Below, one piece after another: positions 1,738 through 52,143 of a stretch of 64,000 nt of DNA. Numbering within the stretch: position 1 is the first letter of the stretch; the number at the start of each line of letters is the position of its first letter. The notes under the pieces were generated by a model. The model saw only the letters and a program-made list of their open reading frames with translations. It was not told the origin of the DNA and ran no database searches. Position numbers and translations under genes: made by a program. Origin of the DNA: Diogma glabrata (lineage: Eukaryota; Arthropoda; Insecta; Diptera; Cylindrotomidae); NCBI GenBank assembly GCA_963693315.1, contig OY856188.1, positions 188,384,930 to 188,448,929 on the forward strand, given 5' to 3'.

Positions 1738-1817
1738 TTCAAACATATTTTAAATTTATTTGTGTTTTAAAAATTATACATAAATTTTAATATTTAGTTT
1801 TATTATTAGTTTTAATT

Positions 1818-3839: not shown

Positions 3840-4195
3840 CTAATGGCGCACAACGCCATTAAACTCAAAATATGACTTTTCAAGCGTAATCTCAAGATTT
3901 GTATGCGCTTGAATGTATAGTGATCCTTGGTCACAAGTCATCATAACCACATTTAACCCCATTTTTTCTTCACACATCTGAATATTTTTTTTAATTAATT
4001 TACTTAATTTTGAGGATGTAAAGGATTTGTTGACAACAACATTATTAAGGACATATTTCCAGTTCAAAAGTAATGATCGTACCTTAAAAAATAGAGCTGA
4101 ACTGGCTAGCTCATTTTTTCTTTCGGTCCCATCATCATAAAATCGCCTATCCATTAAAATATTTATTATCTTTTCATCGTTTAAGTCCAAAATAA
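3840..4195 (-). pseudogene. P-element/THAP9-type transposase, catalytic-domain fragment, copy 1
   Basis: On the minus strand 116 codons match the RNase-H-like core of P-element transposases: a segment with G-T-E-R-K-N-E-L-A-S-S-A-L-F-F-K-V-R-S-L, then LLLNWKYVLNN, and later a conserved MMTCDQGS motif (family: CDQGS, with a catalytic Asp). Reading on the minus strand, this follows the N-terminal half at 5000-6193, and the two are separated by a Penelope-type fragment. Downstream of CDQGS the frame decays and stops at 3840. The gene is therefore split and truncated. P-like transposases act in the nucleus on element ends. Confidence 0.75.
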
Positions 4196-6193: not shown

Positions 6194-6695
6194 AAATATA
6201 TTAACGTATAGGTGTTTCATGGCTCACTAAATAAATATGATCAATAATTTATTATCTATATTATCTATATCTATATTATCTACATATTAAAAAATATATT
6301 ATGAACGTATTATATTATCTAGGGTTATATTATCTATAATATGGTCCGAACGAGAACAAACCAACCATGCCAACAGGTTCTTAAAATTGTCCTAGGTAAT
6401 GAAAATTCATTTGTTAAATTAAAATTTTTTTTAAACACGTAAATGAATTGTCATGAAACGATCAAATTTATCTGAGTAATTTATCTATAATTTCTTTGTG
6501 AATCGATATTTTGATGTTGTTTCTTTAAATTAAAATATTTTAAGTAAAAATATGGTCAAATTCAATTCGTTCCAAATTTCAATAAATATTTAAAACTGTT
6601 TTGTTGTTGTCCCTTAAAATCAAAAACAAAAAAAAATATAAACACCATAAATAATATTTTAATTTAAAAGTTCTAAACTGTAACAAGATATTTAA

Positions 6696-6835
6696 ATAAT
6701 AATAAAATAATAAACGCCTTATTCTTGTTAAATTGAGTTTTTTAGATACTACTGTCGATGAAAGCATAGCTTTCGAAATACGTATTTAGTGAAATAAAAC
6801 TCAATTTAACAAGTGCGTTTATTATTTTATTATTA
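6696..6835. repeat. inverted repeat with ribozyme-like loop, copy 1
   Basis: Arms of about 40 bp (6699-6742 and 6795-6834) are near-perfect complements. The 50-bp loop contains TGTCGATGA, a GC-rich stem AAAGC/GCTTT and CGAAATACGTA, arranged like a degenerate hammerhead core. A Penelope-type terminus is possible. Confidence 0.45.
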
Positions 6836-8076
6836 CATAAATAATAATAATTTCCAACCTATGTTTACAATAATTTCTTCTTTTATTAATTTGTCATACA
6901 CACACTCAAAAATCAGTTCCTTTTGTTTTATATGTAATTTGGTTAAAAAAAATACTAAAAACAACTAAAGTTTTATTTTTTTGTATTTATATTGTAAATA
7001 ATAAAACCACCTTTAATGATTTCTTTTGCTATGCTAAATGTTACTCAGCTGTTATCCCTTTAAATTGAAATATTTAACGATTTTTCATGTGTTCACTGTT
7101 TCGGCGCCATTGTGTGGTATTTTGCTTCTAGAGTTCTCACTTCTTAATAATTTTTCCTTATTATTTAACACAACAAATAATAATTTTGAGTGAGGCTCAA
7201 TAAATAGGGCTATCTCAAGTCTTTAAATAACAACCTTTTAACTTTCGTAGTACTATTATTATTATTTATTCTATACAAATTTCAGATTTAATATCAACAA
7301 TCATACATTATTATAAATAAAACTATTTACTAAAAATGTTTCAAAAAATGTTACTAAAAATGTATCCATTCTTTCTTTTTGTTAAATCAAAACTTTTAAA
7401 AATTAAAATTTTATCAAGCGCGTTGAACATGTCAAACGATTACTAATAAAGTGTATTTTGTTTTTTTCACAACATGGAGGATATCAACTGTGGTATATAT
7501 GTTTCTCTCTTTCCTTTCGATTAAACAATTTTTCTCTTTTTCATTAAATTCGATGTTTTAATAAAGAAGGTTTTAATAAAGAAGGACAATAGAAAAATCA
7601 AATTTTTGTTTTTATTGTTATAAATTTATTTATTGAATACTTAATACAATATATGCAATTTCAAAAAGATACGGCAAATGATTCCGGTGCCAAAAATGAT
7701 TAAATAAACACAAATAACCTAACGACCAATACCAACGTCGGCGAGTAAACTGTTCGCTAGTTTCAAAATATGACTTTTGGGGAGTAGGCGACTACACTTT
7801 TTCTATAAATTGTTAAATATTTTCATTTATACCTACATACATATTTCAACCGCCTTCAACATTTTACAATTTACACAGTATCACACCCTTACAAATTAAA
7901 ATCTTGAAGAAATACTTATAATATTAATTTGCTACTAATTTCTTAAAGATGACACAAATAATAATTCAAAATTTCTGAAATGTTGATGAAATATATAAAA
8001 TAAAAATAATAATTTGAAATAATAATTTTTTTAGTCAGATTCATATGAAATTTTAATTTTTGTGTGTCAGTTGCAA
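6836..8076. other. AT-rich non-coding stretch
   Basis: No open frame of note. A short tandem duplication (TTTTAATAAAGAAGG, about 7555-7585) is visible. Probably the body of a decayed retroelement, but nothing diagnostic. Confidence 0.4.
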
Positions 8077-8122
8077 ATTCTATCTCTGATGATGAATATA
8101 ATTCGAAACATGTAAGAGAAAA
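8077..8122 (+). ncRNA. hammerhead-ribozyme-like motif with canonical core, copy 1
   Basis: CTGATGA (8086-8092) is followed by a GAAT-ATA-ATTC stem-loop, GAAA (8105-8108), CATG and GTA (candidate cleavage triplet, 8112-8114), then AGAGAAAAT. That last segment can pair imperfectly (about 6 of 8) with TTCTATCT before the core. All conserved core bases are present. The sequence then runs into an ATTAAATAAA tail like Penelope-type termini. No GIY-YIG or RT frame was seen beside it. Confidence 0.6.
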
Positions 8123-9160
8123 TATTAAATAAAAAAAGAAATATTATAATTTATAAATAGTATCTTTTTTTAAATTGTAAAATCAATAAATTTTGCCTCT
8201 AAGAAAAAAAACAACATAAATTGTTAGATTCATATGAGTTTAGAATTTCTAAACTCCTTGTTAATTATCACTAAACTATCGAAATCGATTGGGCTTAAAA
8301 ACTAATAAACATATATTAAAAAATTATGTTTCAATTCTAAACTCAAAGAAATCTGAAATATAAAATTGATATCTTTGCTCAAAAAAAACAAAAATTAATT
8401 ATAAAAGCAGTAGTTTTAATTTAGGTCTCGTATATGGATGATGTTTCGTTATTTTATTTCTGAATTATTTACGTACAATATATTATAAGTACATTTTTTA
8501 ATATAAAAATTATTTATTTTATTTTTAATGGTTATGTAAAAGAAAAGTTTGTTTAAATATCGTTATAGTCATGAAACTAATTAATAAAAATTAATATTTC
8601 TGAAATACTTTTTAAGTAGTTCAATAAATTATAATTAAGAAATGCTTTGTATTGTACTAAACTTAATAAATAATATGTATAAATATATAATTGAACATAG
8701 TGTAAACCATGTTATTCTTGTTAATTGAAATAAATAAATAAGTTGTGTTAATTCTATTTTATCTAGTTTTATTATACATAAAAACAACAAATGACAAATA
8801 AATCGGTATAAATAGAGTTATCCACAGGTAAGACTTCAGAATTTAATCTGTCCTTTAAACCGTTAGTTGGATACGGTACAACTGTTTGTTCTAGAGGTTG
8901 ATTTTTGTGAATTACTATAATGAAATCAAAATAAATGTGCTGTTTTTGCTAAACTTTATTAGAGGTGATTTCATATTAAAAAACTGTTTGTGTCAGATGA
9001 ACCAAACAAAAAAAAAACAGATGAAGAATTAGTAGGAGTCCGTCAAAAGTATCGCCTCAGATGTTAATGAAATGCTGGATAATTTCAACAAGAGGACCAC
9101 AATATTGGTATATCGTAGGTGAGTATGAAGTAGAATTGACATTGGCACAAATAAGCACAT
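8123..9160. other. AT-rich non-coding stretch
   Basis: No frame or repeat I can assign. Duplicated exactly at offset 9956 apart from isolated differences. Confidence 0.4.
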
Positions 9161-9445
9161 TTGGAATTTTTTGTCGGATGCGTTAAGAGGATAAAATCGG
9201 AAAATGGCAGAAAATCGAAACAAATTAAAATATTAAAATCAAAAACCAACCAAAATATTTCGCGTGTGTTCAGAAAAAACTCAAATGCTAAAAACCAATA
9301 TCGTTCAAACAATTATAAAGCAATCTCAGAATACAACCCCAATCGACAAAAGAATAAAATTAAGGAAAGGTCAGATAATATAAATAGTAAAAGTTTAAAC
9401 AAGTTTGAGACGAGAACAATTAGACACAAGAAACATAAACAATGA
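9161..9445 (+). CDS. unrecognised Lys/Asn-rich ORF, copy 1
   Basis: A 94-codon frame, very basic and rich in K, N, R and S, with no motif I recognise. It precedes a short frame (9442-9522) reading CDECDCGGSEFRDVNGLWYT, zinc-ribbon-like at its start, and lies upstream of the gypsy RT fragment. It could be a gag or nucleocapsid relic, or chance in A-rich DNA. Low confidence that it is a gene. Confidence 0.2.
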   Translation: MEFFVGCVKRIKSENGRKSKQIKILKSKTNQNISRVFRKNSNAKNQYRSNNYKAISEYNPNRQKNKIKERSDNINSKSLNKFETRTIRHKKHKQ

Positions 9446-9864
9446 AGAACAAAACTATTTGTGATGAATGTGATTGTGGTGGATCTGAATTTAGAGATGT
9501 AAATGGACTTTGGTATACTTGAACCTCTCTTACGTTTTCACCTAAACATCGTGTATTTTTTAAATTTGTACCCATTTTACCAATTAACAAATTTAGCAGG
9601 TGATTGAATTCTGGATTTTGTAATCGAAAAGAGGAAGATGATTGTTAATAGCTGATGGTCTTGATTATTCTACATAGCTACAAAATTTTCGCGCAAATCA
9701 TCGGTCGAATTTTCTCTATTATATTGTTTCCTGGATGGCAAAAGATGTTATATTAAGTTTAGTGAGTGGACAACCCTATAGTTGTAGTTCCAAAACAAAA
9801 CCTTTCAAAGTAGGTGGTATTTATTTTGAAAATAATTAAATTATAATAACAGTTTATAAAATCT

Positions 9865-10160
9865 GTGAAGAGAAGTAGTAATACTATAGTATCAATATCC
9901 ATAAATAACTTAGTCGATTCTGTTTGTGTTAAAAGCGAATTTTCAATTTTCCTATCGAGTTTAAATAGACTTCAACTTGGATATCGATTGGATTACTATC
10001 TAGACGATATTTTAACTGGTGCGCTGGATTATTATGACTGCAAAAAAGTACTTCTATGCGTGCTTGTTCAACTCAACCAGTACAATGTAAAAATAAATAA
10101 AGACATATCTAGTGGTGGTGAGGTAAATTCTCTCGGTCATCACATAGATGATATTGGTTC
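9865..10160 (+). pseudogene. Ty3/gypsy reverse-transcriptase fragment, copy 1
   Basis: About 100 codons include YYLDDILTGA (the YLDD catalytic box of gypsy-type RT), then VLVQLNQYNVKINKD and SLGHHID, the expected order in the palm and following region (YLDD, VL..L, N..K, LGH.I). Nothing upstream or downstream completes a pol gene, so this is a relic. The LINE inserted immediately after it, at 10144-10165. Confidence 0.65.
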
Positions 10161-10165
10161 ATATC

Positions 10166-10776
10166 GCAGGAGAGATCGATTTTGATCGATTATGATCAAT
10201 GTTGATCTACGGGTCTGACTACCCTGCGTACTCCAGTCCCTGCCATTGACATATGAGTTAGCGTGAGATATCACATACCACTGGCAATGGCAGGAGATGT
10301 CATTAGCCAAGATGATATCTTAGGGTGCTGGCGGACGAACTTTAATTAGTCAACGGCAGCACTTCCAGTCTTAGCTGGGCAGCGTTCCGTAGCGGTACCG
10401 CTCATTAGCTCTTCCGAGGAATCGGACCAACTCGTAGTTATGTGTGGGCTTTGTGCCTCGATTGAAGTGGTGGGCGGTGCGTCTGGGGTGCGCTGCATCA
10501 GCTGGATTATTGGCAATTAGTTTTGTTTTGTTTTCTGCAAATTTCTCACAATTTGTTTTCACTTATTTTTTTGTTATTATTTCTTCATCTTATCATGAAA
10601 TATTGGCATATGTCATATTTTGTAGTATGATATGATTTTTTTACTTAGTTATGCATTTTAAAATAAAACATAAAAAAAAAAATAAACATTTTGATATATA
10701 TATGGCAATACAACCGAAAAAAAATAAGTAGGCAAGTGGTAAAGCAAATCGGCGCAATCCACCCGCCCATAAAGCG
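10166..10776 (+). mobile_element. 5' part of CR1/Jockey-type LINE, cut by the duplication breakpoint
   Basis: Identical, apart from one base, to the first 611 bp of the full LINE at 20122. Its 5' target-site copy is at 10144-10165. The LINE stops at 10776, inside the 5' UTR, and the next unit of the tandem duplication follows, so this LINE copy was never complete in this position. Confidence 0.88.
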
Positions 10777-10795
10777 CCACCCACCCGCCACTGTG
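10777..10795 (+). other. tandem-duplication junction with filler
   Basis: Between LINE sequence (to 10776) and Harbinger sequence (from 10796) lie 19 bp. The last nine (GCCACTGTG, 10787-10795) match 817-825 of copy 1, implying a 21-bp deletion (826-846). The preceding bases repeat CCACCCGCC, also found 20-30 bp upstream in the LINE. This looks like templated filler. Confidence 0.8.
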
Positions 10796-11686
10796 AAAAT
10801 GTGAGACCAAAAACTCGAGTGTATATGTTTATATGGTATTTGGCAAACAATGAAACGTTTCGCCAAATTGGAGATCGGTTTGGTTTCAGCCGAAGCCACG
10901 CATATGATATCATCGTAGAACTGGCTTTATTTATGGGAAATGAATCAAAAAATTTCGTTGAGTGGCCATCCTTAGAAGAGCAAAAAAAAAATATCGGCTG
11001 GATTTAAAATTTTCAGTAATATAGAGAACATAATTCAAGCTATCGACTGCACGCATATAGAGATACCTAGACCTCAATACCACCAACGAGATTTTTACAA
11101 TAGAAAAAAGTATCACAGTTTACAAATGCAGGCAATAGTAGATCACAACAAAAAATTTACCAGTGTTTTTGTTGGAGAACCCGGATCTATGCACGACTCA
11201 CGTGTATTGCGGCGGTCCAAATTATTTAAATACTTATGTGAAAGGCAGCAACAAATGGTATTACCAAAAGGATTTCTACTGGCGGATCTTGCATATCCGA
11301 AAACATATCCATGGCTAGTCCCGCCGTACAAAATTAATCAAGGGATGAGCAATCATAAACGGCAATTTAATAAGCGTCATTCAAAAACAAGAATAACTAT
11401 TGAGCAGGCATTTGGCTTATTAAAGATGCGTTTTCGGCGTCTTCAAAAATTTGGGAATATAAAAAGAAAATTAATAATATTATTTGTATTAAGTGCTTGT
11501 GCACTTCATAATCTATGTATAGATTATGATGATCTAGAAGTGGAAGGATCAAATCGATTATCCGATGAAAATGAAAATCAACCAGCTGCAAGCGGACTTA
11601 ATCAAGACGAAGGAAACCGAAGCATGCAGACAACAAGGCAGGACGAATTACTACAAGAGTTAATTCAGAAACACATAATTACTTAA
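10796..11686 (+). pseudogene. PIF/Harbinger transposase, copy 2 (5'-truncated, frameshifted)
   Basis: Same sequence as 847-1737, with the same A10 frameshift (10982-10991) and intact DDE residues (D about 11045, D about 11285, E about 11402). The first 14 codons of the exon and its splice acceptor are missing because the duplication begins inside the exon. Without its upstream exons this copy cannot make full transposase. Confidence 0.9.
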
Positions 11687-11766
11687 TTCAAACATATTTT
11701 AAATTTATTTGTGTTTTAAAAATTATACATAAATTTTAATATTTAGTTTTATTATTAGTTTTAATT

Positions 11767-12530
11767 TTAATTTCTGTTTTGCAATATATTGCCCAACGTT
11801 TCTCTAAATCCAGTAATGGAGGCAGCAATGTTGTTCATTGCTGCCGCCACATTATTTTGTGCCTGGGTTAGGCCGTCTATCGACTTAATTAAATCATTAT
11901 TTAATTTTCTTTTGAACTCCCTTTCTGAGGCTCTATAATTCAAAAGCCTTTTCATATTTGTTTGGCCCCGTCGTTACCGTCGTCTTTGGGTCCGGTTCAC
12001 TGGTTCCGGCTGATTTTCTTGACGGTTTATTGGTTCACGGTTTTCCACGTTTTCCATCTGGGAAGCATTATTTTCGCCCTGGTCTAGATTTTGCGCCGAC
12101 AATTCTAGCCACTCTTCACTATAAGTTTCTGATTCCGCTCTTATTGCTAACTCCCCTGTTGCGGCTTCCACTACTTCCGTTGGCCTGTTGCCCAAAATCC
12201 GGTCAAGACTTTCGAAATGTATGAATGTAGACTCGCCGCTTGTCCTCATTCTATCATTTGCCGACTTGTACAGTCTTACCAAGCCCCTCCACTTGGTTTT
12301 TATTTGTGTTACTGTAAAATCCTAAAAAGTTGTTAAGATCATATTTAAGCTTTTTATATATATGATTTATTAGATTAAAATACAATGAAAAAGTTACTTA
12401 CATAATTTCTTAGGAGCAAATATTCTTTGATATTTGTCCACATTTGCCTTCTGCCTTCAGCCGATTGCTCTAAATACATGTACTCCTCAAAAGCCTCTAT
12501 GAGAACTTCTTTGGCGTAATTCGTCCACAT
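11767..12530 (-). pseudogene. Harbinger Myb/SANT-like protein, copy 2 (exon 1 intact, one stop)
   Basis: Exon 1 (12530-12402, 43 codons, ends at a GTAAGT donor) is open because the 7 bp lost in copy 1 are present. Exon 2 starts after an AG acceptor at 12321 and reads WRGLVRLYKS, then an acidic linker. A single TAA at 11974-11976 interrupts it, after which the same frame stays open to 11767. That stop is therefore the only visible lesion. If it replaced a sense codon such as CAA, the protein would be about 227 residues. Confidence 0.8.
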
Positions 12531-13795
12531 TACCACAACTCTAACTAAAATATACTAAACTAAACTACTAAACTAAAATATCTATACTCTATTACTCTAA
12601 ATCTTACTAAAATACTCTATTCTAACTACAATAATCTAACCTAATCTAATCTAATCTAAAACAACTATAATCAAACTAAATTAACAAATATAATCAAACT
12701 AAAACAATAACAATTTTTTTAAATAACCAAAACAATAACTATAAAAAACAATAACTAATAATGGAAAATCAAGCCAAACGTTAGACTGACAGTTAAATAC
12801 GAAAAATGTTGACGTTTAAACGCAATAAAAAGGTTGATTTTTTCGTGATAAATGAGTGCGTTTCATCCTAGGCAACTGACCATAAAAATCATGATTTTTT
12901 TTCTCACATTTGCTGTACCGAACACTAGGATTGAAAACCGAAATCAACTCGCTGATAGATACGCCAATTTAAAAACAATTCCTGGAACACGGATATCACT
13001 CATACATTCCTACAAATGATGGATCCATTTTAGCTAGACGTTATTCTAACTCTAAGGAATTTAGCAATGTAAAATTAAATAAATGATAAAAAATTTGTGA
13101 AATATTTATTTTAAGTTAAAATTAAAACTTGAATATAAAAACACATATCCAAAAAAATTGTTCGTTTTTTTATCTCCACTTTTTCTTACGATGAAAAATT
13201 TTAAGGTGAGTTGCAATAAAATTAATAAAAAAAAACAAAAAATTTTCGCCTTCTGAAAATTTTAAAAAATGCTAGTAACATATGTATGTACCTTTCATAT
13301 GTTAAAAAATCAAAACTTTTAAGAATACGCATTTCTAGAAAATCGATTTTGAATTTTCTAATTTCTACCGTTATTTTCTAAAGAAAAATGTTGAATATAT
13401 AATATAATTTTGAATAGCTGTGTTTAATACATTTTGAGCTATAAAACATCAAAATCAGTTCAGTAGTTTTTTCTGTAGAGCCATTTAAATACACCAGGGT
13501 CGAGAGCAATTTCTTGATTTTTCATCACCCCGTATCTAAAGACAGGGTCAAAAAAGAGAAAATTAAAAACGCAGAATTTTTTTTTATTGATGCCAACGAA
13601 TACATAAATATACAAAATTAAAACCGCATTTCTAAAATTGCCTGTTTTTGGCTGATTTCACGTGTTTCTTGCCATATAAAAAAATGGTAGTCCAGGCATC
13701 CCAGTTAGAAAACATGTATCAGTTTTGTTAATACAAAAGAAAATTAAAGTGTATGCGAGGACGTCACTAAGACCAATTTTGTTCGTTGTTTATAC

Positions 13796-14151
13796 CTAAT
13801 GGCGCACAACGCCATTAAACTCAAAATATGACTTTTCAAGCGTAATCTCAAGATTTGTATGCGCTTGAATGTATAGTGATCCTTGGTCACAAGTCATCAT
13901 AACCACATTTAACCCCATTTTTTCTTCACACATCTGAATATTTTTTTTAATTAATTTACTTAATTTTGAGGATGTAAAGGATTTGTTGACAACAACATTA
14001 TTAAGGACATATTTCCAGTTCAAAAGTAATGATCGTACCTTAAAAAATAGAGCTGAACTGGCTAGCTCATTTTTTCTTTCGGTCCCATCATCATAAAATC
14101 GCCTATCCATTAAAATATTTATTATCTTTTCATCGTTTAAGTCCAAAATAA
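13796..14151 (-). pseudogene. P-element-type transposase catalytic fragment, copy 2
   Basis: Identical in translation to 3840-4195, including the CDQGS motif. Same split by the Penelope fragment. Confidence 0.75.
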
Positions 14152-14959
14152 AATAAATCTTTTTTGTTCAAATTTTTAAAAACATTTTTACTTTTTATTT
14201 GACGACGTTTCTGCTTACAAAAGCTATCTTCAGGTGAGAAAAAAAAATATCAACTATACAAAACAGAAAATGAAAATTATACAATTTAAACAATATTAAC
14301 AAAAAACACTTACAAAAATGTTTTGTCCAAATAAATGAATTCACTGATGTCACTATTACAATATTATTAATTATAATTTTCAAATAAATTTAAAAAAATT
14401 TAAATTAAAAAAAGTGAAACTCAACTGAAACTTACAAAATATCTTCTTTAAACAAAAGGATAAAAAATTTTTTGAAATATAAACCAAAGATAGACAGTAT
14501 TTAAAAAAAAAAAAAAATTTTAAATATTTAAATAAAAGAAAGGTATACGTTATCCAAATATGTGCAGTCAGATTGTATGTTCATATTGTTATGGAATTTT
14601 TTAATATAAATTGACTCAAGAATTTTGCGCTTAACCGTATTAGACTCAAAATTTAAAATTTCAGGATTGTCCCAATCAATTTTATGATTACTAGAAATAA
14701 CATGATCACATAAGGCACTATGTGACCCATTACCTCTAGAAATATGATATCTATGGTCTTTTAACCTGGAAACCAGATATTGTTTAGTTTCACCAATATA
14801 TGTTAAGCCACAATTAAGTTCAGCACAATTAATCTTATAAACTAAATTAGAAAAATATTCTTGAGGAACAGGATCTTTAAGATGTGTGAAAATACGATTT
14901 TTTAGAGTGTTGCAAGGTTTACCAACTGCTTTAATATTATAATATTGTAGTTTAGTCTC
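14152..14959 (-). mobile_element. Penelope-like 3' fragment (GIY-YIG), copy 2
   Basis: Duplicate of 4196-5003: GIY-YIG endonuclease frame ending at about 14528, and the hammerhead-like motif at about 14194-14238. Confidence 0.78.
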
Positions 14960-16149
14960 GCTTTATTGAAATTTCGTCAAAACACGAATTTTGTCTTTTG
15001 CCACAATTTACGAAAAAAGAGTTGTGTTACTCCATTAACACTTTGTTAACCGGTGGGATAAACTTAATGGGAAACCACTTGTATATTGATGAAATTGACG
15101 GAAATTTCAAATGTAAACTATCTCTAAATACTTGTATAAAATACAAATGTTTCTCCGATTTCTGTAGACTGTACATTTTTTCTATTTCATAAATCACAGA
15201 CACGATTTATTTTAGGTTTTATTTTTACTTTATTTACACTTTATTTTAAATTTTTATTTTAGCCGTGTTCGATTTGACTGAAGCAACTGAATCATCTGAA
15301 AAATTGAATGCAATTGTTGTTGTTTTTTCAGTTGTTTCAGTCAAATCGAACGCACCTTTTGTCTTCATTCGAAGACGATCAAAATACATCTGAAATTTCA
15401 TATCTCATAATTCTTGATTTTCCTTTGGTTAGATTTATATTGGTTTTTTTTGTTATGTGTGTATGTGTAGTTAAAATAAGGAAAATCAGTTTGTAACCGA
15501 ACAACAAACATTGTGCAAAATTTTTATCATGATTGTTGTATGAATAATTTTGCTTGAGCAGAAGCTTACAAACATTTTTAGAATTTTCATTTACACTGAA
15601 ATAGTCAATAACATTGTCAACAGTGACTACACTATCTTTGTGCAAAAGTCTCGTTAATTTTAATTTTCTTTTGACATTTTCAAGTTCTGTTTTATAAGAT
15701 ATGAGTCGTTTCGACTTCTTAATACAATTTTAACAATCACTGACAAGACTTTTGTCAAATTCGCAATCCGAACAGTTTATTGTATTAATTATATTTATAA
15801 ATTCTATCATCATCAGTTTTGTCACGCTGTGTGCCAACATCCGATGATTGCATTAGAACTTAAAAATTAGTCTCTCTTATACTTGGAAAAGAGTAGCTGC
15901 TACAGATTTTCAAATCACTTACATGTAATATAAAAAGGGTAGGTACAGCATTTCTTGTCAACCAACTATTACCGATATATGCCGGTTCGAAATGCTTAGC
16001 ACAAATAAAATTATGTTTTACCTGTAAATCGTCCGACTTTAATCCAATAGCTGACAACCAACGTTCTTTTCTATCCTTCTGTAATGGAAGACGATAAAAC
16101 CGCATATTTGTAAGCTGCGATTTATTTTTGCAGCACGGAACGATGCATG
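14956..16149 (-). pseudogene. P-element-like transposase N-terminal half with THAP domain, copy 2
   Basis: Duplicate of 5000-6193. The THAP finger is at about 15945-16149 and the FDE region near 14970-15000. Same stops and hairpin (15265-15352). Confidence 0.7.
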
Positions 16150-16156
16150 AAATATA

Positions 16157-19116
16157 TTAACGTATAGGTGTTTCATGGCTCACTAAATAAATATGATCAA
16201 TAATTTATTATCTATATTATCTATATCTATATTATCTACATATTAAAAAATATATTATGAACGTATTATATTATCTAGGGTTATATTATCTATAATATGG
16301 TCCGAACGAGAACAAACCAACCATGCCAACAGGTTCTTAAAATTGTCCTAGGTAATGAAAATTCATTTGTTAAATTAAAATTTTTTTTAAACACGTAAAT
16401 GAATTGTCATGAAACGATCAAATTTATCTGAGTAATTTATCTATAATTTCTTTGTGAATCGATATTTTGATGTTGTTTCTTTAAATTAAAATATTTTAAG
16501 TAAAAATATGGTCAAATTCAATTCGTTCCAAATTTCAATAAATATTTAAAACTGTTTTGTTGTTGTCCCTTAAAATCAAAAACAAAAAAAAATATAAACA
16601 CCATAAATAATATTTTAATTTAAAAGTTCTAAACTGTAACAAGATATTTAAATAATAATAAAATAATAAACGCCTTATTCTTGTTAAATTGAGTTTTTTA
16701 GATACTACTGTCGATGAAAGCATAGCTTTCGAAATACGTATTTAGTGAAATAAAACTCAATTTAACAAGTGCGTTTATTATTTTATTATTACATAAATAA
16801 TAATAATTTCCAACCTATGTTTACAATAATTTCTTCTTTTATTAATTTGTCATACACACACTCAAAAATCAGTTCCTTTTGTTTTATATGTAATTTGGTT
16901 AAAAAAAATACTAAAAACAACTAAAGTTTTATTTTTTTGTATTTATATTGTAAATAATAAAACCACCTTTAATGATTTCTTTTGCTATGCTAAATGTTAC
17001 TCAGCTGTTATCCCTTTAAATTGAAATATTTAACGATTTTTCATGTGTTCACTGTTTCGGCGCCATTGTGTGGTATTTTGCTTCTAGAGTTCTCACTTCT
17101 TAATAATTTTTCCTTATTATTTAACACAACAAATAATAATTTTGAGTGAGGCTCAATAAATAGGGCTATCTCAAGTCTTTAAATAACAACCTTTTAACTT
17201 TCGTAGTACTATTATTATTATTTATTCTATACAAATTTCAGATTTAATATCAACAATCATACATTATTATAAATAAAACTATTTACTAAAAATGTTTCAA
17301 AAAATGTTACTAAAAATGTATCCATTCTTTCTTTTTGTTAAATCAAAACTTTTAAAAATTAAAATTTTATCAAGCGCGTTGAACATGTCAAACGATTACT
17401 AATAAAGTGTATTTTGTTTTTTTCACAACATGGAGGATATCAACTGTGGTATATATGTTTCTCTCTTTCCTTTCGATTAAACAATTTTTCTCTTTTTCAT
17501 TAAATTCGATGTTTTAATAAAGAAGGTTTTAATAAAGAAGGACAATAGAAAAATCAAATTTTTGTTTTTATTGTTATAAATTTATTTATTGAATACTTAA
17601 TACAATATATGCAATTTCAAAAAGATACGGCAAATGATTCCGGTGCCAAAAATGATTAAATAAACACAAATAACCTAACGACCAATACCAACGTCGGCGA
17701 GTAAACTGTTCGCTAGTTTCAAAATATGACTTTTGGGGAGTAGGCGACTACACTTTTTCTATAAATTGTTAAATATTTTCATTTATACCTACATACATAT
17801 TTCAACCGCCTTCAACATTTTACAATTTACACAGTATCACACCCTTACAAATTAAAATCTTGAAGAAATACTTATAATATTAATTTGCTACTAATTTCTT
17901 AAAGATGACACAAATAATAATTCAAAATTTCTGAAATGTTGATGAAATATATAAAATAAAAATAATAATTTGAAATAATAATTTTTTTAGTCAGATTCAT
18001 ATGAAATTTTAATTTTTGTGTGTCAGTTGCAAATTCTATCTCTGATGATGAATATAATTCGAAACATGTAAGAGAAAATATTAAATAAAAAAAGAAATAT
18101 TATAATTTATAAATAGTATCTTTTTTTAAATTGTAAAATCAATAAATTTTGCCTCTAAGAAAAAAAACAACATAAATTGTTAGATTCATATGAGTTTAGA
18201 ATTTCTAAACTCCTTGTTAATTATCACTAAACTATCGAAATCGATTGGGCTTAAAAACTAATAAACATATATTAAAAAATTATGTTTCAATTCTAAACTC
18301 AAAGAAATCTGAAATATAAAATTGATATCTTTGCTCAAAAAAAACAAAAATTAATTATAAAAGCAGTAGTTTTAATTTAGGTCTCGTATATGGATGATGT
18401 TTCGTTATTTTATTTCTGAATTATTTACGTACAATATATTATAAGTACATTTTTTAATATAAAAATTATTTATTTTATTTTTAATGGTTATGTAAAAGAA
18501 AAGTTTGTTTAAATATCGTTATAGTCATGAAACTAATTAATAAAAATTAATATTTCTGAAATACTTTTTAAGTAGTTCAATAAATTATAATTAAGAAATG
18601 CTTTGTATTGTACTAAACTTAATAAATAATATGTATAAATATATAATTGAACATAGTGTAAACCATGTTATTCTTGTTAATTGAAATAAATAAATAAGTT
18701 GTGTTAATTCTATTTTATCTAGTTTTATTATACATAAAAACAACAAATGACAAATAAATCGGTATAAATAGAGTTATCCACAGGTAAGACTTCAGAATTT
18801 AATCTGTCCTTTAAACCGTTAGTTGGATACGGTACAACTGTTTGTTCTAGAGGTTGATTTTTGTGAATTACTATAATGAAATCAAAATAAATGTGCTGTT
18901 TTTGCTAAACTTTATTAGAGGTGATTTCATATTAAAAAACTGTTTGTGTCAGATGAACCAAACAAAAAAAAAACAGATGAAGAATTAGTAGGAGTCCGTC
19001 AAAAGTATCGCCTCAGATGTTAATGAAATGCTGGATAATTTCAACAAGAGGACCACAATATTGGTATATCGTAGGTGAGTATGAAGTAGAATTGACATTG
19101 GCACAAATAAGCAAAT
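16157..19116. other. non-coding stretch, copy 2 of 6201-9160
   Basis: Holds the second copies of the inverted repeat (about 16652-16791) and of the canonical hammerhead-like motif (core CTGATGA at 18042-18048). The rest is unassigned AT-rich DNA. Confidence 0.5.
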
Positions 19117-19401
19117 TTGGAATTTTTTGTCGGATGCGTTAAGAGGATAAAATCGGAAAATGGCAGAAAATCGAAACAAATTAAAATATTAAAATCAAAA
19201 ACCAACCAAAATATTTCGCGTGTGTTCAGAAAAAACTCAAATGCTAAAAACCAATATCGTTCAAACAATTATAAAGCAATCTCAGAATACAACCCCAATC
19301 GACAAAAGAATAAAATTAAGGAAAGGTCAGATAATATAAATAGTAAAAGTTTAAACAAGTTTGAGACGAGAACAATTAGACACAAGAAACATAAACAATG
19401 A
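19117..19401 (+). CDS. unrecognised Lys/Asn-rich ORF, copy 2
   Basis: Duplicate of 9161-9445 with the same doubts. Confidence 0.2.
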   Translation: MEFFVGCVKRIKSENGRKSKQIKILKSKTNQNISRVFRKNSNAKNQYRSNNYKAISEYNPNRQKNKIKERSDNINSKSLNKFETRTIRHKKHKQ

Positions 19402-19820
19402 AGAACAAAACTATTTGTGATGAATGTGATTGTGGTGGATCTGAATTTAGAGATGTAAATGGACTTTGGTATACTTGAACCTCTCTTACGTTTTCACCTA
19501 AACATCGTGTATTTTTTAAATTTGTACCCATTTTACCAATTAACAAATTTAGCAGGTGATTGAATTCTGGATTTTGTAATCGAAAAGAGGAAGATGATTG
19601 TTAATAGCTGATGGTCTTGATTATTCTACATAGCTACAAAATTTTCGCGCAAATCATCGGTCGAATTTTCTCTATTATATTGTTTCCTGGATGGCAAAAG
19701 ATGTTATATTAAGTTTAGTGAGTGGACAACCCTATAGTTGTAGTTCCAAAACAAAACCTTTCAAAGTAGGTGGTATTTATTTTGAAAATAATTAAATTAT
19801 AATAACAGTTTATAAAATCT

Positions 19821-20116
19821 GTGAAGAGAAGTAGTAATACTATAGTATCAATATCCATAAATAACTTAGTCGATTCTGTTTGTGTTAAAAGCGAATTTTC
19901 AATTTTCCTATCGAGTTTAAATAGACTTCAACTTGGATATCGATTGGATTACTATCTAGACGATATTTTAACTGGTGCGCTGGATTATTATGACTGCAAA
20001 AAAGTACTTCTATGCGTGCTTGTTCAACTCAACCAGTACAATGTAAAAATAAATAAAGACATATCTAGTGGTGGTGAGGTAAATTCTCTCGGTCATCACA
20101 TAGATGATATTGGTTC
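19821..20116 (+). pseudogene. Ty3/gypsy reverse-transcriptase fragment, copy 2
   Basis: Duplicate of 9865-10160 with the YLDD box. It was the insertion target of the complete LINE at 20122. Confidence 0.65.
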
Positions 20117-23100: not shown

Positions 23101-23756
23101 CGATCTTGTAATGGCGATGGCAAAAAGTGCGTCTAAAAAACTCGGACTCCTAAATAGATGCAAAAAATTTTTCACTCCATACCAATTGCTCCATGTTTAT
23201 AAGTCCTATATTCGTCCCTGTATGGAGTACTGCTGTCTAGTTTGGGGTGCTGCCTCTGTTTCCATCTTGGCACTCTTGGACTCTGTTCCAAAGCGAGCTA
23301 TACGAATTGTGGGTGATCGAACTTTGACATCAAAACTTGATTCCCTACAACATCGTCGCACTGTTGCTGACCTCGTTGTTTTTTACAAATATCGTCATCA
23401 GCAGTGCTCAGATGAAATCAGCGGCATCATGCCTCAAACTTATTCTTACCCCCGTTCCACTCGGCAATCGGCTGCCGCAACCAGTGAAACGGTAAAGATC
23501 CCGCGCTGTCATACTGGCAGATCGCAGAGAGACTTCTTTGTCCGAACTGCGTACAAATGGAATAGTTTGCCGGAACACTTAGTCTCAGGTGGCTTCAACC
23601 CACAGATGTTTAAAAAAAAGCGTTAATCTACACCTTAGAACGCCAGTTGTTGTGGGACCCAGGTCTAGACCTAGGTCCTAAAAGGTATTTATGTGTTGTT
23701 GTGACACATATTCTAAACCCTATTACACAACACATTTTATTAAAAAAAAAAAAAAA
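20122..23756 (+). mobile_element. CR1/Jockey-superfamily LINE, full insertion
   Basis: A 3.6-kb non-LTR retrotransposon flanked by a 22-bp TSD. It has a GC-richer 5' UTR of about 620 bp, then an endonuclease/RT frame, a 3' UTR of about 115 bp and a terminal A run (23742-23757). No separate ORF1 (gag with CCHC knuckles) is visible between 20122 and 20748, unusual for a Jockey-clade element, so ORF1 was lost or never present. Clade assignment between CR1, L2 and Jockey is uncertain. Confidence 0.92.
20748..23626 (+). pseudogene. LINE ORF2: APE endonuclease plus reverse transcriptase (one stop, one frameshift)
   Basis: The N-terminal APE-type endonuclease nicks target DNA. Motifs: NICGLNAN (20800s), LTETQ with catalytic Glu (about 20880), VTGDFNVHN (about 21200) and GNSDHYLI (about 21435). 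The RT follows from about 22080: GMDNIPP, NYRPIALLS, ALDIPKAFDRVWH with the first catalytic Asp, GVPQGSVLSP, and SFADDST with the catalytic pair (about 22795). Two lesions: in-frame TGA at 21270-21272, and loss of one base near 21940, after which the frame of 21995-23626 continues. All key catalytic residues are intact, so the copy is young. The product would act in target-primed reverse transcription. Confidence 0.93.
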
Positions 23757-23778
23757 ATAGATGATATTGGTTCATATC
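23757..23778 (+). repeat. target-site duplication, right
   Basis: Exact match to 20100-20121, directly after the A tail of the LINE. Confidence 0.9.
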
Positions 23779-38324: not shown

Positions 38325-38865
38325 TTTTTTTTTTTTTTTTTTTTAATAAAATGTGTTGTGTAGTAGGAATTACAATATGTGTCACAATAACACATAAAAA
38401 CCTTTTAAGACCAATGTCCCACAACAACATACGTTCAAAGGTGTTGATGGACGTAAATCATTCTTTTTTTTTTGTTTTTTTTTATATTTTTTGTTAAAGA
38501 ATGGATAACTAAACAAAAAAATCCTATCACTGACAAAATATGACATAGGCCAATATTTTATGATAGAATAGAGAAAATAAAAGTAAATTAAAAAGTAAAT
38601 AGCAAATTTTTACAAAAATTTGCTGAAACAAAACAAAAATGTAGTTGCCAATAATCCAGCCGGTTGCATATTCCTTGATCCTGTGACGCACAGTCTTTCT
38701 TAATGATTGAAGCCCACACATAGTTATATGAAGGCTCGTATCTTCAAGAAAGCAATAGCGTCTCATCATCAAGGATTATTTCACAGCTAAGATTGAGGAT
38801 GCTACCGTTGACTGAACACAGTTCATCCGCCACCACCCCTAAGATGTCACCTTGGCATGTTTACT
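38325..38865 (-). mobile_element. LINE-derived non-autonomous element (fused 5' and 3' UTR), copy 1
   Basis: On the minus strand 38865 to about 38500 matches the 5' UTR of the LINE at 20122 (shared stretches around GCCCACACATA, TTGCCAATAATCCAGC, AAATATGACATA.GCCAATATT). It then runs straight into the LINE 3' UTR (about 38460-38345, TGTTGTTGTGGGAC, TGTGTCAC) and a 20-base A tail (T at 38325-38344). The whole endonuclease/RT gene is missing. The joint lies in an A-rich tract. Confidence 0.8.
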
Positions 38866-40599: not shown

Positions 40600-44516
<3,917 letters not shown>

Positions 44517-45035: not shown

Positions 45036-45445
45036 GCGTGGTTTGAAGGACCACGCAAGTAGTCTCTGGGATGGATCTGATAATCACGATTATGACACTA
45101 TTTTGTGTAATACTTAATTTTATAATTTTAAATTTATATTTGTTATGGGTTTTTTGTTTAGACTAACTTAACTAACAACTATATCCTATTACAATAATTA
45201 GAAAAAATAAAATGTTTTGAAATTGTTGATAATATAAAATTTCTGCTTGTCTTCTATTTTTCTTTGCATCCTTTATCTTACCTATGGCTAATTGTTGCTA
45301 CTTTCAGAGATTCGATGAACTTGTGTTTTACAATCTGAGAAATCGTTTAATAACTGCTTTTATTTCCCGTATCCGTTTGTTTGAAATCAGGTGTATTTTT
45401 TCTTGTCCGCAACTTGTAATAATTGAAACAACGTTATCGCACTTA

Positions 45446-45600
45446 TAGTCGAGTAAAATTAGGTTTTTACTTCTAAGTCCTCAGGGACAGCTCTGATTTT
45501 GATGATTTTTTTTTTAAATCTTTGATTTTGTGTTTTATTTGAAATCAGAAACATTACAATGTGCGCAATTAAATATTTATATTGTTTAAATAATAAAAAC
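45446..45600 (+). repeat. TE-B terminal inverted repeat, left
   Basis: Pairs with 50847-51001. The right arm has about 12 extra bases near its outer end (AGCTTCAAAATCGTC against AGGTTTTTA). Confidence 0.8.
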
Positions 45601-46183
45601 CTAATTTATGCTGAGATTAAATTTTTTTAAGGTATTTATTAACTTAAAATTGTAAAAGTGTTTGTTTCGTTTTTATTTTACAATTATAAACTGCTGTAAG
45701 TCATATAAAAATAGTAAAAAAAAATTATAAACAATTATAAATGATTTTTTATTTATTTTACATTTAAATATGGTATGTTAATATTTGGTATTTAAGATGT
45801 TATGATGTAATAAATTAAACAATTAAATTCGCATTTTAGGTAACTCCTTTTTCAAAATATCGTTCCTTAACATCGTTTCAATTTATTATCTCAAATTTTC
45901 AAACCTTGCGATTGTTATATTTTATTGCTTATTGGATTGTTATCATCGCTAGCCATTAGCACGTTTAAAAAACCAAAAAAAAAAACAAGAGATTTTAAAG
46001 TTTTTTCTATTTCTTTTCAGTTTTCTTGTAAATTTGTTATGATGCAATAAATTAAACCACCAGAGGTGAGTGGTCCTCTTAGTCTCACATTCCATTTCAT
46101 ATCTGATTGAATTTTGGATTTTGACCGTAACAAACAATATTTATTTATTTATTTTGTTTCTGGTAATTAAGCTGTATAGGCTT

Positions 46184-46505
46184 CTATTTACATTCTGGTG
46201 ACGATATGGTGGTGTGTGAATATAGCAAAGCTGACAAGGAAGAAAATCTTAGATGTATCCGTTGTGGGGACGACATTCTGGAATTTATAAAACCTACACC
46301 TTTTAGTTTATCAAAATTGGGGATTCTAATAAATACATCACCGCGGCCGTTCAGCATATGAAATGAAGTAATCCATAATTGGTATAATTGAGTTGATAAT
46401 ACTGTCTTATCCTGCTTATCAACCCATCCTATCCAACATATCATTTTAGAATCATTGGAAGTGATCACAGGTCGCCATTCTAGTAGACTCTTACTATTTA
46501 TGGAC
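46184..46505 (-). CDS. unrecognised ORF in the left half of TE-B
   Basis: On the minus strand the frame is open from about 46490 (LEWRPVITSNDSKMICW...) to stop at 46184. WIGWVDKQDK and YQLWITSFHMLNGRGDVFIR have ordinary protein composition, unlike the low-complexity surroundings, so it may be a real exon of TE-B or of another element inserted in it. No family recognised. Confidence 0.3.
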
Positions 46506-46805
46506 GGAAATATATATCAACTTTAAATCAAACAATGATTTTCTTGTGGCAGAGCGAAAGTGTTCTTTATGCTTTATAACTAAATTTGTTGGAATTTACT
46601 ATTTTTGGTAAGGTAATTGTTATCATCAGCTACAAAATTTCTTTTGTTTAAGAAAGGATTAATCCTGGCGAATTGTTCCGGAAATGTTCTTGCGTCACCT
46701 CTTATATAAAAAGGACAATTTACGGATAAGTAACTTTAAATTTCAGTCAGTTTTAATGAAGATATACCTTGCATTAATTTTAATACAAGTCAATTCGTGT
46801 TTAAC

Positions 46806-46915
46806 ACGATATCTGTTTGTGTGCATGTGTGTGTGTGTGTGTACCTGAATATATGTTTGGGGGTACGAATGTGTGTGTTTGAGTGCATGAGGTTTGAGAG
46901 CATGTGAATGTGTGC
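46806..46915. repeat. GT-rich microsatellite region
   Basis: Interrupted (GT)n and GTGTGTTTG words. Confidence 0.8.
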
Positions 46916-47212
46916 TGAAAATTGTGGGGTTGGACGTGGTGATCGCAAGTTTTTTTTTCACATATGGGGGGTCGCCAGAGTCTCCTTATTTCACTTGTTT
47001 TTTTGTTTTCCGTTTTTATCATGAGAAACGCGTACTGTACTGGTTATTTCTGCTGGAGCAGCAGGTATTCATTGTTCGATCCCACTTACTGAAGCTAGTT
47101 TGGGGCTTAAAAATCTCGCTAGGTGTGCGGCCTGCTAAACGACTTCGTTGGTTTACCAATGAAGCAGTTCTCCATTACAAAGAATATTTGATGGTTTTTA
47201 AATATATACAGG

Positions 47213-47531
47213 TCTTGCAGTCCAAATTCAACATTTTGCAAATCAAATTCAACTTTTGCAAATCAAATTCAACTTTTCTCAAATCAAATTCAACTTTTTG
47301 CAAATCAAATTCAATATTTTGAAAATCAAATTCAACTTTTTGCAAATCAAATTCAATTTTTTGATATTCAATTTGATTTGCAAAAAATTGAATTTGATTT
47401 GCAAAACGTTGAATTTGATTTGCAAAATATTGTATTTGATTTGCAAAATATTGAATTTGAAATCTTAAAATTGAATTTGAGTTGCAAAATGTTGAATTTG
47501 ATTTGCAAAATGTTGAATTTGGACTGCAAAC
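47213..47531. repeat. inverted minisatellite (palindromic array)
   Basis: A unit of about 20 bp (TTTGCAAATCAAATTCAAC, variants) repeats about seven times to 47365. It then continues as its complement (GTTGAATTTGATTTGCAAA) about eight times to 47531. The outer ends (GCAGTCCAAATTCAAC and GTTGAATTTGGACTGC) are exact complements, so the whole array can fold on itself. Confidence 0.9.
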
Positions 47532-48000
47532 CCTGTATAAATAATTGAATAAATTATACAAAATGATATTCTTTAATTTTCATTCCCATATTATGTGTCG
47601 AGGCTTTCATTCTCTTCAGGTTGTGGCGCGTTATCACAATTCGTTCCCCTACAATTAATGCATGCATGTGAGCAATGCAGACCTCCTTTTCTGCATGCAC
47701 ACGCTGTACCGCATCCAGTTTTGCAAGAGCAAAATATAATTTTTAAAATGTTAGTTGGGGCTGCTGGTTGTGTCATTTTTATTGGTGTTGAATGGATATC
47801 TGTCTGCCAACCCCAGTGTTTGAGAGATATGTTAGAATTAGATTCTCATTGTTGTACTTGAAGATAAACTCTTTTAATGTGATGCTTCGCTGCATCTTCT
47901 GTTGGAGGTAATGAGCTAAGTTGGACACTTTTCTCTTTTGACACTAGTGTTACAAAACGTTTATATCTTAGTTCATTTAAACTTGTCGCCGTTTCAGCTC

Positions 48001-48951
48001 CATACTAGGGTGGCTATCAGCTGTGTGGGGAATTTTTTTTTTAAAATTTCTTAGGTCTCAGGGCAAAAATTTATTCCTTTTAACAAAAGGAAAAAAAATG
48101 TTCTGGAGAAATCCGATCAAAGTAGTTTAAGGCGGCGCGACGGCGGTTTAAAGTTGAAAAATCTCATATTTTCTCATATTTTCACGCTTTACAACCCTTA
48201 TATCGCGTTTAGCAACCCTAGATCCAAAATTAAAAACTTAAGCGTGTAATTTAGTTCAATAGCTTTCCAAAAACATTCAAATCGGACAGCAAATAACGAA
48301 GTTATGGAAAATATAAGCATCGGTCTGACGTCTCACGTTTTTTTTTTGTTTTTAAATAAAAAATGTTGTGTTATAGGGTTTTATGTGTCACAACAACAAA
48401 TAAATACCTTTTTATAATGTTTCATGTCAAACAAATAATTAATTTAATTTTTGGGTGAAAAAATTGGGTGAAAAAATAAATAAAAATCTTCTTTTGACAC
48501 ACTTGACAGCATTTTTTGGACAAACTTATAATGCAATAATCTAGTTTTTGATCTCACATACCAATCCTGACCATCTAGGTTTTTCCTCATGTCCTTGTTC
48601 CTACTCATTATCACTTAAAACCAACGTTTTTTTAAGTAAAAAATATGCATATTTCCTTGTTTTGACACACTTGACGATTTTTTGACACACTTCCGGTACA
48701 GTCATCGAACACATCGTCCTTTCGGCTCTTACCATTGAGCGTACCTATTTTTAGAAACCAACATTTTTAAAATCCCTTCATCCGTTTTCTAGATTTCATC
48801 GGTCGTGAAGGCCAGACGGCCGGCCGATCGGTCGGACGGTCGGCCGGCGCCGCAGACAGGCATAAATTTTTTTTTTTGCTTTTTTAGAATCAGTAGTAGG
48901 TCCTAAAACGTCAAGAAATGACAAAAAAGTGGGGGTAAGAATTTCACTTTT
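48001..48951. mobile_element. 951-bp insertion in the TE-B gene
   Basis: AGCTC occurs on both sides (47996-48000 and 48952-48956), a candidate 5-bp target duplication, and the TE-B frame resumes outside. Inside are a LINE 3' fragment (48341-48425) and a very GC-rich stretch (48807-48863: GGCCAGACGGCCGGCCGATC, then GTCGGACGGTCGGCCGGCGC). No gene recognised, and no terminal inverted repeat. Confidence 0.6.
48341..48425 (-). mobile_element. LINE 3' UTR fragment
   Basis: On the minus strand it matches the LINE 3' end at 23660-23757 (TTATTTGTTGTTGTGACACAT, AACACAACATTTTT, A tail). A 5'-truncated insertion nested in the 951-bp insert. Confidence 0.75.
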
Positions 48952-50846
48952 AGCTCATGAATGTAATACTTAAGACCGAAATATTTTGCAGTCGTGGATA
49001 AAATAGCATCTTGTATTGCTCCATACATTGTAAGAAGTAGTAAACCTTCTGTACCTGTAACGCTCTTCTTTACTTACATTTCAATCATAAAAGTTTTAGC
49101 TGCTGCACGTAATTTATTAGAATTGAAAATTTTAAAAAATTGATTTTTTCCCTTATTATAAAAAGCTGATGTAGTATCACATCCTGTGATGGAGAAGGAG
49201 AATATGTTCGTTTTTTTATTCAATAACTGATTAAGTTTTTTTCGTTGAATAAACTCGCTGTAAGACATTATTTCTTGACGGTTTCAAAAATAGAATTCTT
49301 TATCATTTGGTGATAAAGCCATCAATAGCACTAACACATCTATGTCCTCTGCTACAACAACTACATGACAAAATAGACAATTTAGAGCATATTGTACAAT
49401 TAATTGATCAGCATCACTTTCTGCTTGACAACACTCCATATCATTTGCTAAAAGTTTTTCGCAAAGAAGAATAATAAATCTATTTTTATTAAATTGTTTG
49501 CTAAGAACTTTTCTTTAGTGGTTTTTAAGGGCATGTCTTCATTGAATAAATAATTAATGGAACTATTACCAATGTATCTTCGATTTCTTTCAGAAGCTTT
49601 AGTTCCATCACTACTGTAACCATCAAATACCACTTTAACGTTAGTTCCATAGTTATGACGCAAATATTTGATGTATTGTTCACAAATGCTAGAAAACTTT
49701 TGATTTTGTTCCCATTTTAATCTAGCAACATACCTCCATCAATGATGTAATAAAACTTACGAACATCGGTAACATCTTCTTCACATTATTCGAACATATC
49801 ATATAGCGATGATTTCTTCGACTTTCTCATTCCAACATTATCGAAAATAGAAAGTGGATAGGGAGCTAATTCATAATCAAAATTCATCCTAAGTCCCTTA
49901 TTAGTCTTTCTTAAGAAGCATATGCGTTGAAAAATTAAATTTGGGTCTATAGCAATTTCATTATTATAAATTTTAACTTTGCTATTCATGCACAATAATG
50001 ATTTAATTGTTCCTTTAACTGTCATTTTTAGATCTTTAAAGTTTGAACCATTTATTGCATTTCTTAATTAAGTTCCAACATCAAACGCTTTATAGCAATC
50101 AATAGTGTCATTACCTACAATTCCTGTAGAAATTGATGTCACTTGTTGCAAGTCAGGAAAAGGGTTGTGAATACTGAAAAAATCTGCTATTGTATTTACA
50201 GACTTAGGATCTTCATTGATTCTACTATCACTAGCATCAACATGTTGATACGACGATGTAAATGAAACTTCACAAAATTCTTCCATTCCGTTAACAACGT
50301 CTGTTGTAAAATCGTTGATTTTATCCATTTAAAAAACAACACTTCGAGTTTCACCACGTCTAAGTTGACCACCATCTACTTTCATTGATTTCATCAGTGT
50401 TTGCTCCATTGTCTGATCTGTTGAAATTTTTGAAAAATAAACTTTAGATCTTCGAGTGCTATGGTTGACGCATTTTTTGTAAATAAATTTCACTTGGCCT
50501 TAGCATAAAAAAAATGTCTTGCAGCAATAAAAAAACGGAATCAATTAAATCTCAATCATTATTTTGAGTAAAAAATATTTCACCCTACGATAAAAGGTGG
50601 AATCTACCCCCTTACACGCATAAAACTTGTCTGTTCGTAAAACTCAGCAAAGTCTCTTTATAGCAGTGACAAATACATACACATGTAATATATAATTAGA
50701 CATAGCGCATATATACTTGCTACTCTCATAATAACATATTTTTATGTTATAAATAAATGAAATTTTCTATCAATTTCACCTTAACAATTTCTTATAGTAT
50801 AAACTTCGTAAAAAACTAATTTCTGCATCTATTTTTGTTTATATTG

Positions 50847-51001
50847 TTTAAAAAATATAAATACTTAATTGCGCACATTGTAATGTTTCTAATTTCAAAT
50901 AAAACACAAAAACAAACATTTAAAAAAAAATCATTCAAAATCGGAGTTGTCCCTGAGGACTTAGAAGTTTTGACGATTTTGAAGCTAATTTTACTCGACT
51001 A
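50847..51001 (-). repeat. TE-B terminal inverted repeat, right
   Basis: Complement of 45446-45600. Confidence 0.8.
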
Positions 51002-52143
51002 TTAGTTTTACCCCTGGTTTTAAATCAGAATCATAGTAATGTTGATGTTGAGTTTAGACATAACGATTTTCATTGAATTCTTCAAATAATTAAAAACCTT
51101 GTTTTACTTTGTAGTACTGCAGCTCAGTGATTTATTAAAAGTTTTAGTTAGTTTTAATTTTCTGAATTCCTTTCGTTAAATTCATGATACTCTGACATGA
51201 ATATTATTTCTGCTTTATCACAAGACAATCTTCTTCAGTCGTGAGTTAATTGTTTTCTGCTTATTGCCGCGTTTAAACTCAGAACACCTTGTCATAAAAT
51301 ATTATTGTATATCCGCTTTCCCCTTTGAAAGTGATAATATTTTGGGTAATTCCAGGTTCAAGCGAAGTATTTTCTCTCCCATTTCCTCCAAATGTGGCTT
51401 CCGGTTTCTTGATTGACACACACAAGTCTTGAAGTTATTTTAAAAATAAAATAAAAAAACGATGTTCAAAAACTAAAACCCGACTACTGAAAAATTGCGC
51501 TCTAAAAAAACTAAAATAAAAAAAGGAAGTTCAAAAACTAAAACCCGACTACTGAAAAATCGCGCTCTAACAAAAATAAAACAAGAAAATATTCTCATCT
51601 GAAATTGTTATGTACAATACCAAACTATTCAATATTTACTGTCTATTAAATAAACAACTTACACATAAATAATTTTAACATATTTAATACATAGTGATTT
51701 TCAGAGGATAGCCGTGGTCGTATGCCACCTACCCTAGACAAAACAATACAGTGTGATGCACTTTGACCTTAAAAGCTGATGTTATGGACTCCCGGACCGT
51801 TGAAAACTCTTTAATTTTAATACCACTTAAAACACTAAACTTTTGAAAACAACTTTATTTTTATGGAAATTTTAATTATAATACAAGTACTTTTCTATTT
51901 GATAAGTCCGCGGTATAAATCGGAGTTATCGTGTTATCCAAAACATTCTTAAAATTAAATTAACTTAACAATTAACAATTGGAGGGGAGTGTTAGTGTAA
52001 TAGTACATATGGATTTATTTAATTTATAATAATTACACAAAAAAGGCGTGATATAATAATTTACATATTATTTTGTTATTGGTCAGAACATTTATCATTA
52101 CTTATGCTCTGACCTACGTTCAATAATTGCTTTTTCATAACAC
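51002..52143. other. unassigned, with a 65-bp tandem repeat
   Basis: A unit containing GTTCAAAAACTAAAACCCGA and GCGCTCTAA occurs twice at 51464 and 51529 (period 65). The rest shows no gene. Confidence 0.6.

Follow-up and report, generated by a model that had tools for sequence, protein, structure and literature searches.

The remains of a gene for a nuclease-like protein with a cysteine-rich tail lie on the minus strand of the window, the 64,000 bp of Diogma glabrata DNA analysed here. They raise the question of what the complete protein was and what kind of element carried it.

Extent and decay of the gene

When the window was compared using tblastn with P0203 (1429 aa), its closest full-length relative in the set compared, four aligned blocks with 71, 70, 71 and 53% identity were found. 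What survives is the C-terminal part of a transposon protein, corresponding to P0203 from about residue 750–800 (750–760 when read by eye) to residue 1429. The remains were placed at 47591–50609 (minus strand) from tblastn matches to P0203, starting at residue 801, and to P0028, together with a blastn match to a sister copy. A preliminary description had set the gene boundary at 50328, which proved too short, the homology reaching 50544 against P0028 and about 50609 against the sister copy. The same description had recognised the copy as inactivated, and it is, but the damage, given there as at least three stops and two frameshifts, was understated. There are six in-frame stops (50331-50329, 50070-50068, 49788-49786, 49286-49284, 49076-49074 and 47848-47846), the reading frame shifts near 49723, again near 49500 and, as read by eye, near 50520, and an insert of ~1.0 kb is present.

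This insert, at about 48006–49017, splits the gene and is flanked by a direct repeat of 8–9 bp, (G)TATGGAGC, the length of which would fit a hAT-like element. The sister copy does not contain the insert and its site is uninterrupted (blastn). A 75-bp stretch of the insert recurs near 23680–23757 and 38328–38406.

A tblastn search with residues 1–800 of P0203 gave a best match in the window of only E 0.35, and queries taken from the N-termini of eight other relatives hit nothing but the known gene and background (best background E 0.23). The window copy is dead and non-autonomous, having lost the N-terminal half of the protein.

Terminal repeats and target-site duplication

The gene lies within a whole transposon copy of 5556 bp from one terminal inverted repeat to the other (45446–51001, minus strand), with the target-site duplication (TSD) TTA at 45443–45445 and 51002–51004. 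The left repeat (45446–45687, plus strand) and the right repeat (50777–51001, minus strand) both begin with TAGTCGAGTAAAATTAG, pointing inward, and an alignment of positions 45441–45660 with the right arm (235 columns) shows 80% identity. The 9-mer TAGTCGAGT has only two sites in the 64 kb, the element ends, and the left arm is 93% identical to that of the sister copy, L047. Inside the element, behind the gene, a palindromic array of 21-bp units is located at 47202–47542. Elsewhere in the window, tandem-repeat rows within 1–19912 come back about 9.95 kb further on (as at 2597 and 12553), which suggests a direct duplication of ~9.95 kb or an assembly artefact, and some 930 bp of (TA)n repeat occupy 41616–42549.

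Because a genome search with the ~225-bp arm gave at least 40 scored matches (683 first-look candidates), those of the window and the sister copy among them, a chance pair of unrelated repeats was initially favoured. This is ruled out by the shared TAGTCGAGT ends, the TTA duplication and a sister copy with the same layout. Seven loci with the arm were L002–L008, where L002 is the sister copy and a second inverted arm is within view only at L004. The six loci L003–L008 carry the TAGTCGAGT end, and the second, inverted arm of L004 starts about 1.6 kb away. Judging from these sequences there may be an abundant non-autonomous family sharing the same ends.

The duplications were scanned in 33 loci, comprising 30 matched by P0203, L047, L048 and the window, with an end pattern built from the same families. 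Both ends were found in nine loci, the other 24 being without one or both by the pattern used. An exact 3-bp TSD surrounds eight of the nine (ATA, TAA, TTG, AAT, TTT, TAT, ACA and TTA) and is missing at L010, while mismatched pairings, used as control, gave 0 out of 72.

Copies in the genome

Searching the 1.33 Gb genome with P0203 gave at least 38 match rows from 33 scored of 3878 candidates. Several groups of copies are 97–99.9% identical, up to 99.3% across contigs, other pairs being 82–96% identical, and the near-identical groups imply that parts of the transposon group moved recently. The four longest matches contain one to four stops each, and among the 30 loci fetched six shorter matches have no stop inside the match. 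Two copies on the same contig, L028 and L029, are 99.9% identical; they are inverted relative to each other and separated by about 20 kb.

The copy closest to that of the window is L047, 84–95% identical over three gene blocks, with the same N-terminal loss and no similarity past the element ends. Since the two share the loss and nothing beyond their ends, the deletion form probably moved in trans, with transposase from another copy, before it decayed. The case for movement in trans is weakened by L047 itself, as its ends are altered and no matching 3-bp flanks were seen by eye.

Nuclease motifs and predicted fold

Five motifs were located on the minus strand between 49746 and 49167, in the order in which they had first been noted. 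The first, IIDGG (49732–49746), holds an aspartate found in all 126 full-length relatives. The second consists of VVFDGY (49633-49616) followed by KASERNRR (49600-49577) and was assigned by profile alignment to Exo1; its D, its K and its last R are each kept in 124 of the 126 relatives, with gaps in the other two. The third and fourth acids are found in AESDAD (49407–49424; acidic in 124, gaps in two), the fifth and sixth in AEDIDVLVLL (49323–49352; D in 123, gaps in three) and the seventh in GCDTTS (49167–49184; D in 123, S in one, gaps in two). In P0203 the equivalents are D1043, D1083, D1153/D1155, D1176/D1178 and D1235, spaced by 40, 70, 23 and 57 residues and close to the gaps of 39, 68, 25 and 56 residues first reported for the window. 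In 122 of the 126 full-length relatives every one of the seven positions is acidic, gaps accounting for most of the misses, and in the first-search alignment (82 rows) each position holds an acid in 80 to 82 rows, so the motif set is beyond chance.

Profile alignment pairs six of the acids with acids of Exo1, and the first D lies outside this alignment and inside the fold match. The basic pair K1091 and R1098 of P0203, present in 124 of the 126 relatives, aligns with K85 and R92/R93 of Exo1, where K85 and R92 have a catalytic role, and the G.GK that follows GCD in the element nuclease aligns with the G.G of Exo1.

The structure of P0014, a relative without internal stops, was predicted with a mean pLDDT of 85.3 (means of 10-residue blocks 72–98 between residues 661 and 900). 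A fold search with this model matched Exo1, FEN1, XPG/Rad2 and GEN1 over about residues 648–987, and Exo1 was the sole family matched in three profile searches. The motifs had been read as those of a FEN/XPG-type nuclease, with a fold unrelated to PIN/FEN named as the result that would speak against it; the model has the PIN/FEN fold, which together with the profile searches supports the reading. Superposition suggests that the seven acids cluster in the predicted structure. The PIN/FEN fold, the seven ordered acids and the basic K/R pair, all features of the FEN1/Exo1/XPG family, are thus found in the element nuclease. Pfam gave a single weak match to XPG_I (E 0.099, one of 32 proteins), which, like the weak matches to OrfB_IS605, TraI_middle, NYN_YacP and 5_3_exonuc_N (E 0.033, two of 32), was not used as evidence, and an NCBIfam scan of four proteins returned one weak, unrelated match.

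The N-terminal half and the cysteine-rich tail

Both parts of the architecture first proposed, a nuclease and, joined to it, a CXC-like tail, are present, but they do not make up the whole protein. The full-length relatives, usually about 1,430–1,500 aa, add a large DDE-like N-terminal half, the DUF6589/DDE-like region that is missing from the window copy. N-terminal to the nuclease, D414, D417, D579 and E745 (P0203 numbering) are found in 126 of 126 full-length relatives. Equivalents in the P0014 model are D41 in strand 35–46, D207 after strand 202–206 and E375 in helix 353–377, and D, D and E in such a strand/strand/helix order form the pattern of DDE/RNase H transposases. The invariant acids and the predicted secondary structure would fit a DDE-transposase-like half. 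No DDE transposase was found among the best 50 fold rows for the P0014 model, a list filled by the nuclease.

DUF6589 is the one Pfam family that recognises the N-terminal half. Its curated cut-off of 27 was passed by a single one of six full-length relatives, P0187, with 30.3 bits, and P0119 scored 26.4, just under the cut-off; at looser thresholds the family was matched in 6 of 15 proteins (E ≤ 0.05) and 7 of 32 (E ≤ 1). At the extreme N-terminus, Cys/His positions kept in 111–117 of the 126 full-length relatives form a probable zinc finger.

The cysteine-rich, CXC-like tail is located at 47636–47731 (minus strand) and contains nine cysteines, each kept in 117–119 of the 126 relatives. Some relatives are annotated at source as Tesmin/TSO1-like CXC, and no Pfam CXC match to the tail was found among the families listed for the relatives scanned (25 of 27 families in one scan).

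Relatives in other organisms

A read-through query of the window gene gave 117 relative proteins. A profile built from 32 of these gave 444 matches, and a search with residues 400–860 of P0187 gave 358, the best 120 being listed in each case. Among the matches listed, the hosts are insects, spiders, molluscs, a soft coral, a bony fish, a hagfish and, in one record, a rust fungus, with source names including Cotesia, Aquatica, Araneus, Bemisia, Trachymyrmex, Photinus, Parnassius, Cydia, Acyrthosiphon, Mytilus, Patella, Dendronephthya, Epinephelus, Myxine and the rust fungus Austropuccinia. Gene models in these animals called "uncharacterized" or "Tesmin/TSO1-like CXC" are suggested to be transposon proteins, whose nuclease would have the fold described above.

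In a tree of 39 rows the window groups with P0203 (support 100/100). Cotesia and Aquatica are joined at 100/99, and the rust record and Parnassius at 98/95; such a patchy host pattern would be consistent with horizontal transfer. The rust record, P0281 from Austropuccinia psidii MF-1, is a 1213-aa relative placed beside a butterfly protein, by horizontal transfer or contamination. A search of viral_contigs gave eight pattern matches, none of them relatives.

Assignment of the element

The element is probably a decayed non-autonomous DNA transposon of the Academ type, belonging to a nuclease-bearing, AcademX-like lineage whose relatives combine a DDE-like domain, a FEN-like nuclease and a CXC-like tail. 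Membership of AcademX is likely from the nuclease, the TSD and the size, which were compared with published descriptions. This leaves some room for a new, non-Academ superfamily in which a DDE transposase and a FEN nuclease were joined independently, as does the N-terminal half, which Pfam knows only as DUF6589 (P0187), a term not found in the literature searched. We consider a new superfamily unlikely, as the nuclease, the 3-bp TSD and the size of ~5.5 kb agree with the AcademX and Academ descriptions in the passages available.

Within an Academ-type element the nuclease fold might be retained purely as a DNA-binding or structural module, and cleavage by the element nuclease is indeed a prediction. 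Such a role is very unlikely, however, when seven acids are conserved in 122 and the K/R pair in 124 of 126 relatives, neither being needed for binding alone. A FEN/Asteroid-type repair gene, belonging to the host or domesticated and lying among repeats by chance, could draw on the FEN fold and on P0098, named at source as Asteroid domain-containing, but is contradicted by the inverted repeats and TSDs around the gene, the many near-identical copies, the DDE-like half and the broken frame, and its probability is negligible.

Possible mechanism

As far as can be judged from sequence, a predicted N-terminal RNase H-like DDE domain in full-length relatives would cut the transposon ends and join them to the target, whose two strands would be attacked with a 3-bp stagger, and the fused FEN-like nuclease may act on the branched DNA that results. 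With a chance slightly short of even, it would either clear 5' flaps from the non-transferred strand once joining is complete or make the second-strand cut, in the latter case at the long, partly palindromic ends. The CXC tail may bind DNA. More speculatively, the long inverted repeats, which are repetitive in some families, and the palindromic array at 47202–47542 could provide hairpins for the nuclease.

Host FEN1 is thought to remove 5' flaps in retroviral integration, and to our knowledge other integrating elements depend on host enzymes or on hairpin chemistry for the second-strand or flap step. We tentatively propose, as a possibility clearly below even chances, a transposase with its own flap endonuclease, where the DDE half makes only the transferring-strand cuts and the FEN nuclease takes care of the second-strand cut or the 5' flaps. 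If the two halves cooperate, this widespread group would offer a naturally fused transposase and flap nuclease, making it possible to follow what becomes of the second strand within a single protein.

Comparison with known systems

The nuclease call is good and supported by the fold, and the element is probably a member of a known transposon lineage with an unusual, testable enzyme. Exo1, FEN1, XPG (Rad2) and GEN1 have the fold, the seven acids and the K/R pair in common with the element nuclease, and Exo1 also the G.G aligned behind GCD, but identity in the fold comparison is only 10–15% and, unlike them, the element nuclease is part of a larger protein with a transposase-like half and a CXC-like tail. 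The cysteine pattern of this tail is similar to that of the Tesmin/TSO1 CXC domain, from which it differs in having one CXC-like unit only.

The AcademX nuclease is of the XPG type. The preliminary description knew of no named transposon enzyme combining such a nuclease with a CXC domain, which probably does not hold, since AcademX elements encoding a nuclease are in print, the enzyme being called simply "nuclease" in the passages available (PMC10045372). In the literature searched, no DDE-FEN-CXC protein was found besides AcademX in these passages, and the parts available of PMC12730594, PMC9587614, PMC10799480, PMC10294476, PMC9004415, PMC8290104 and PMC12210899 describe no such nuclease. 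The CXC tail and the match to Exo1/FEN1 are known from the relatives of the element and absent from the AcademX passages, and the window copy differs from AcademX in being without the transposase half. AcademH belongs to the same superfamily by name and is likewise a DDE transposon; it encodes a helicase and, in the passages available, has TSDs of 9 or 10 bp (PMC10045372). No helicase family was listed in the Pfam scans of the relatives (25 of 27 families in one scan). In size the element, at 5556 bp, is like the curated bivalve Academ elements, with a mean of 5565 bp in the part of the source available (PMC10294476). The same passages that tie the longer TSDs to the helicase tie TSDs of 3 or 4 bp to the nuclease of AcademX (PMC10045372, 2023), and it is this pairing that is found here, in the remains of a nuclease and a 3-bp TSD.
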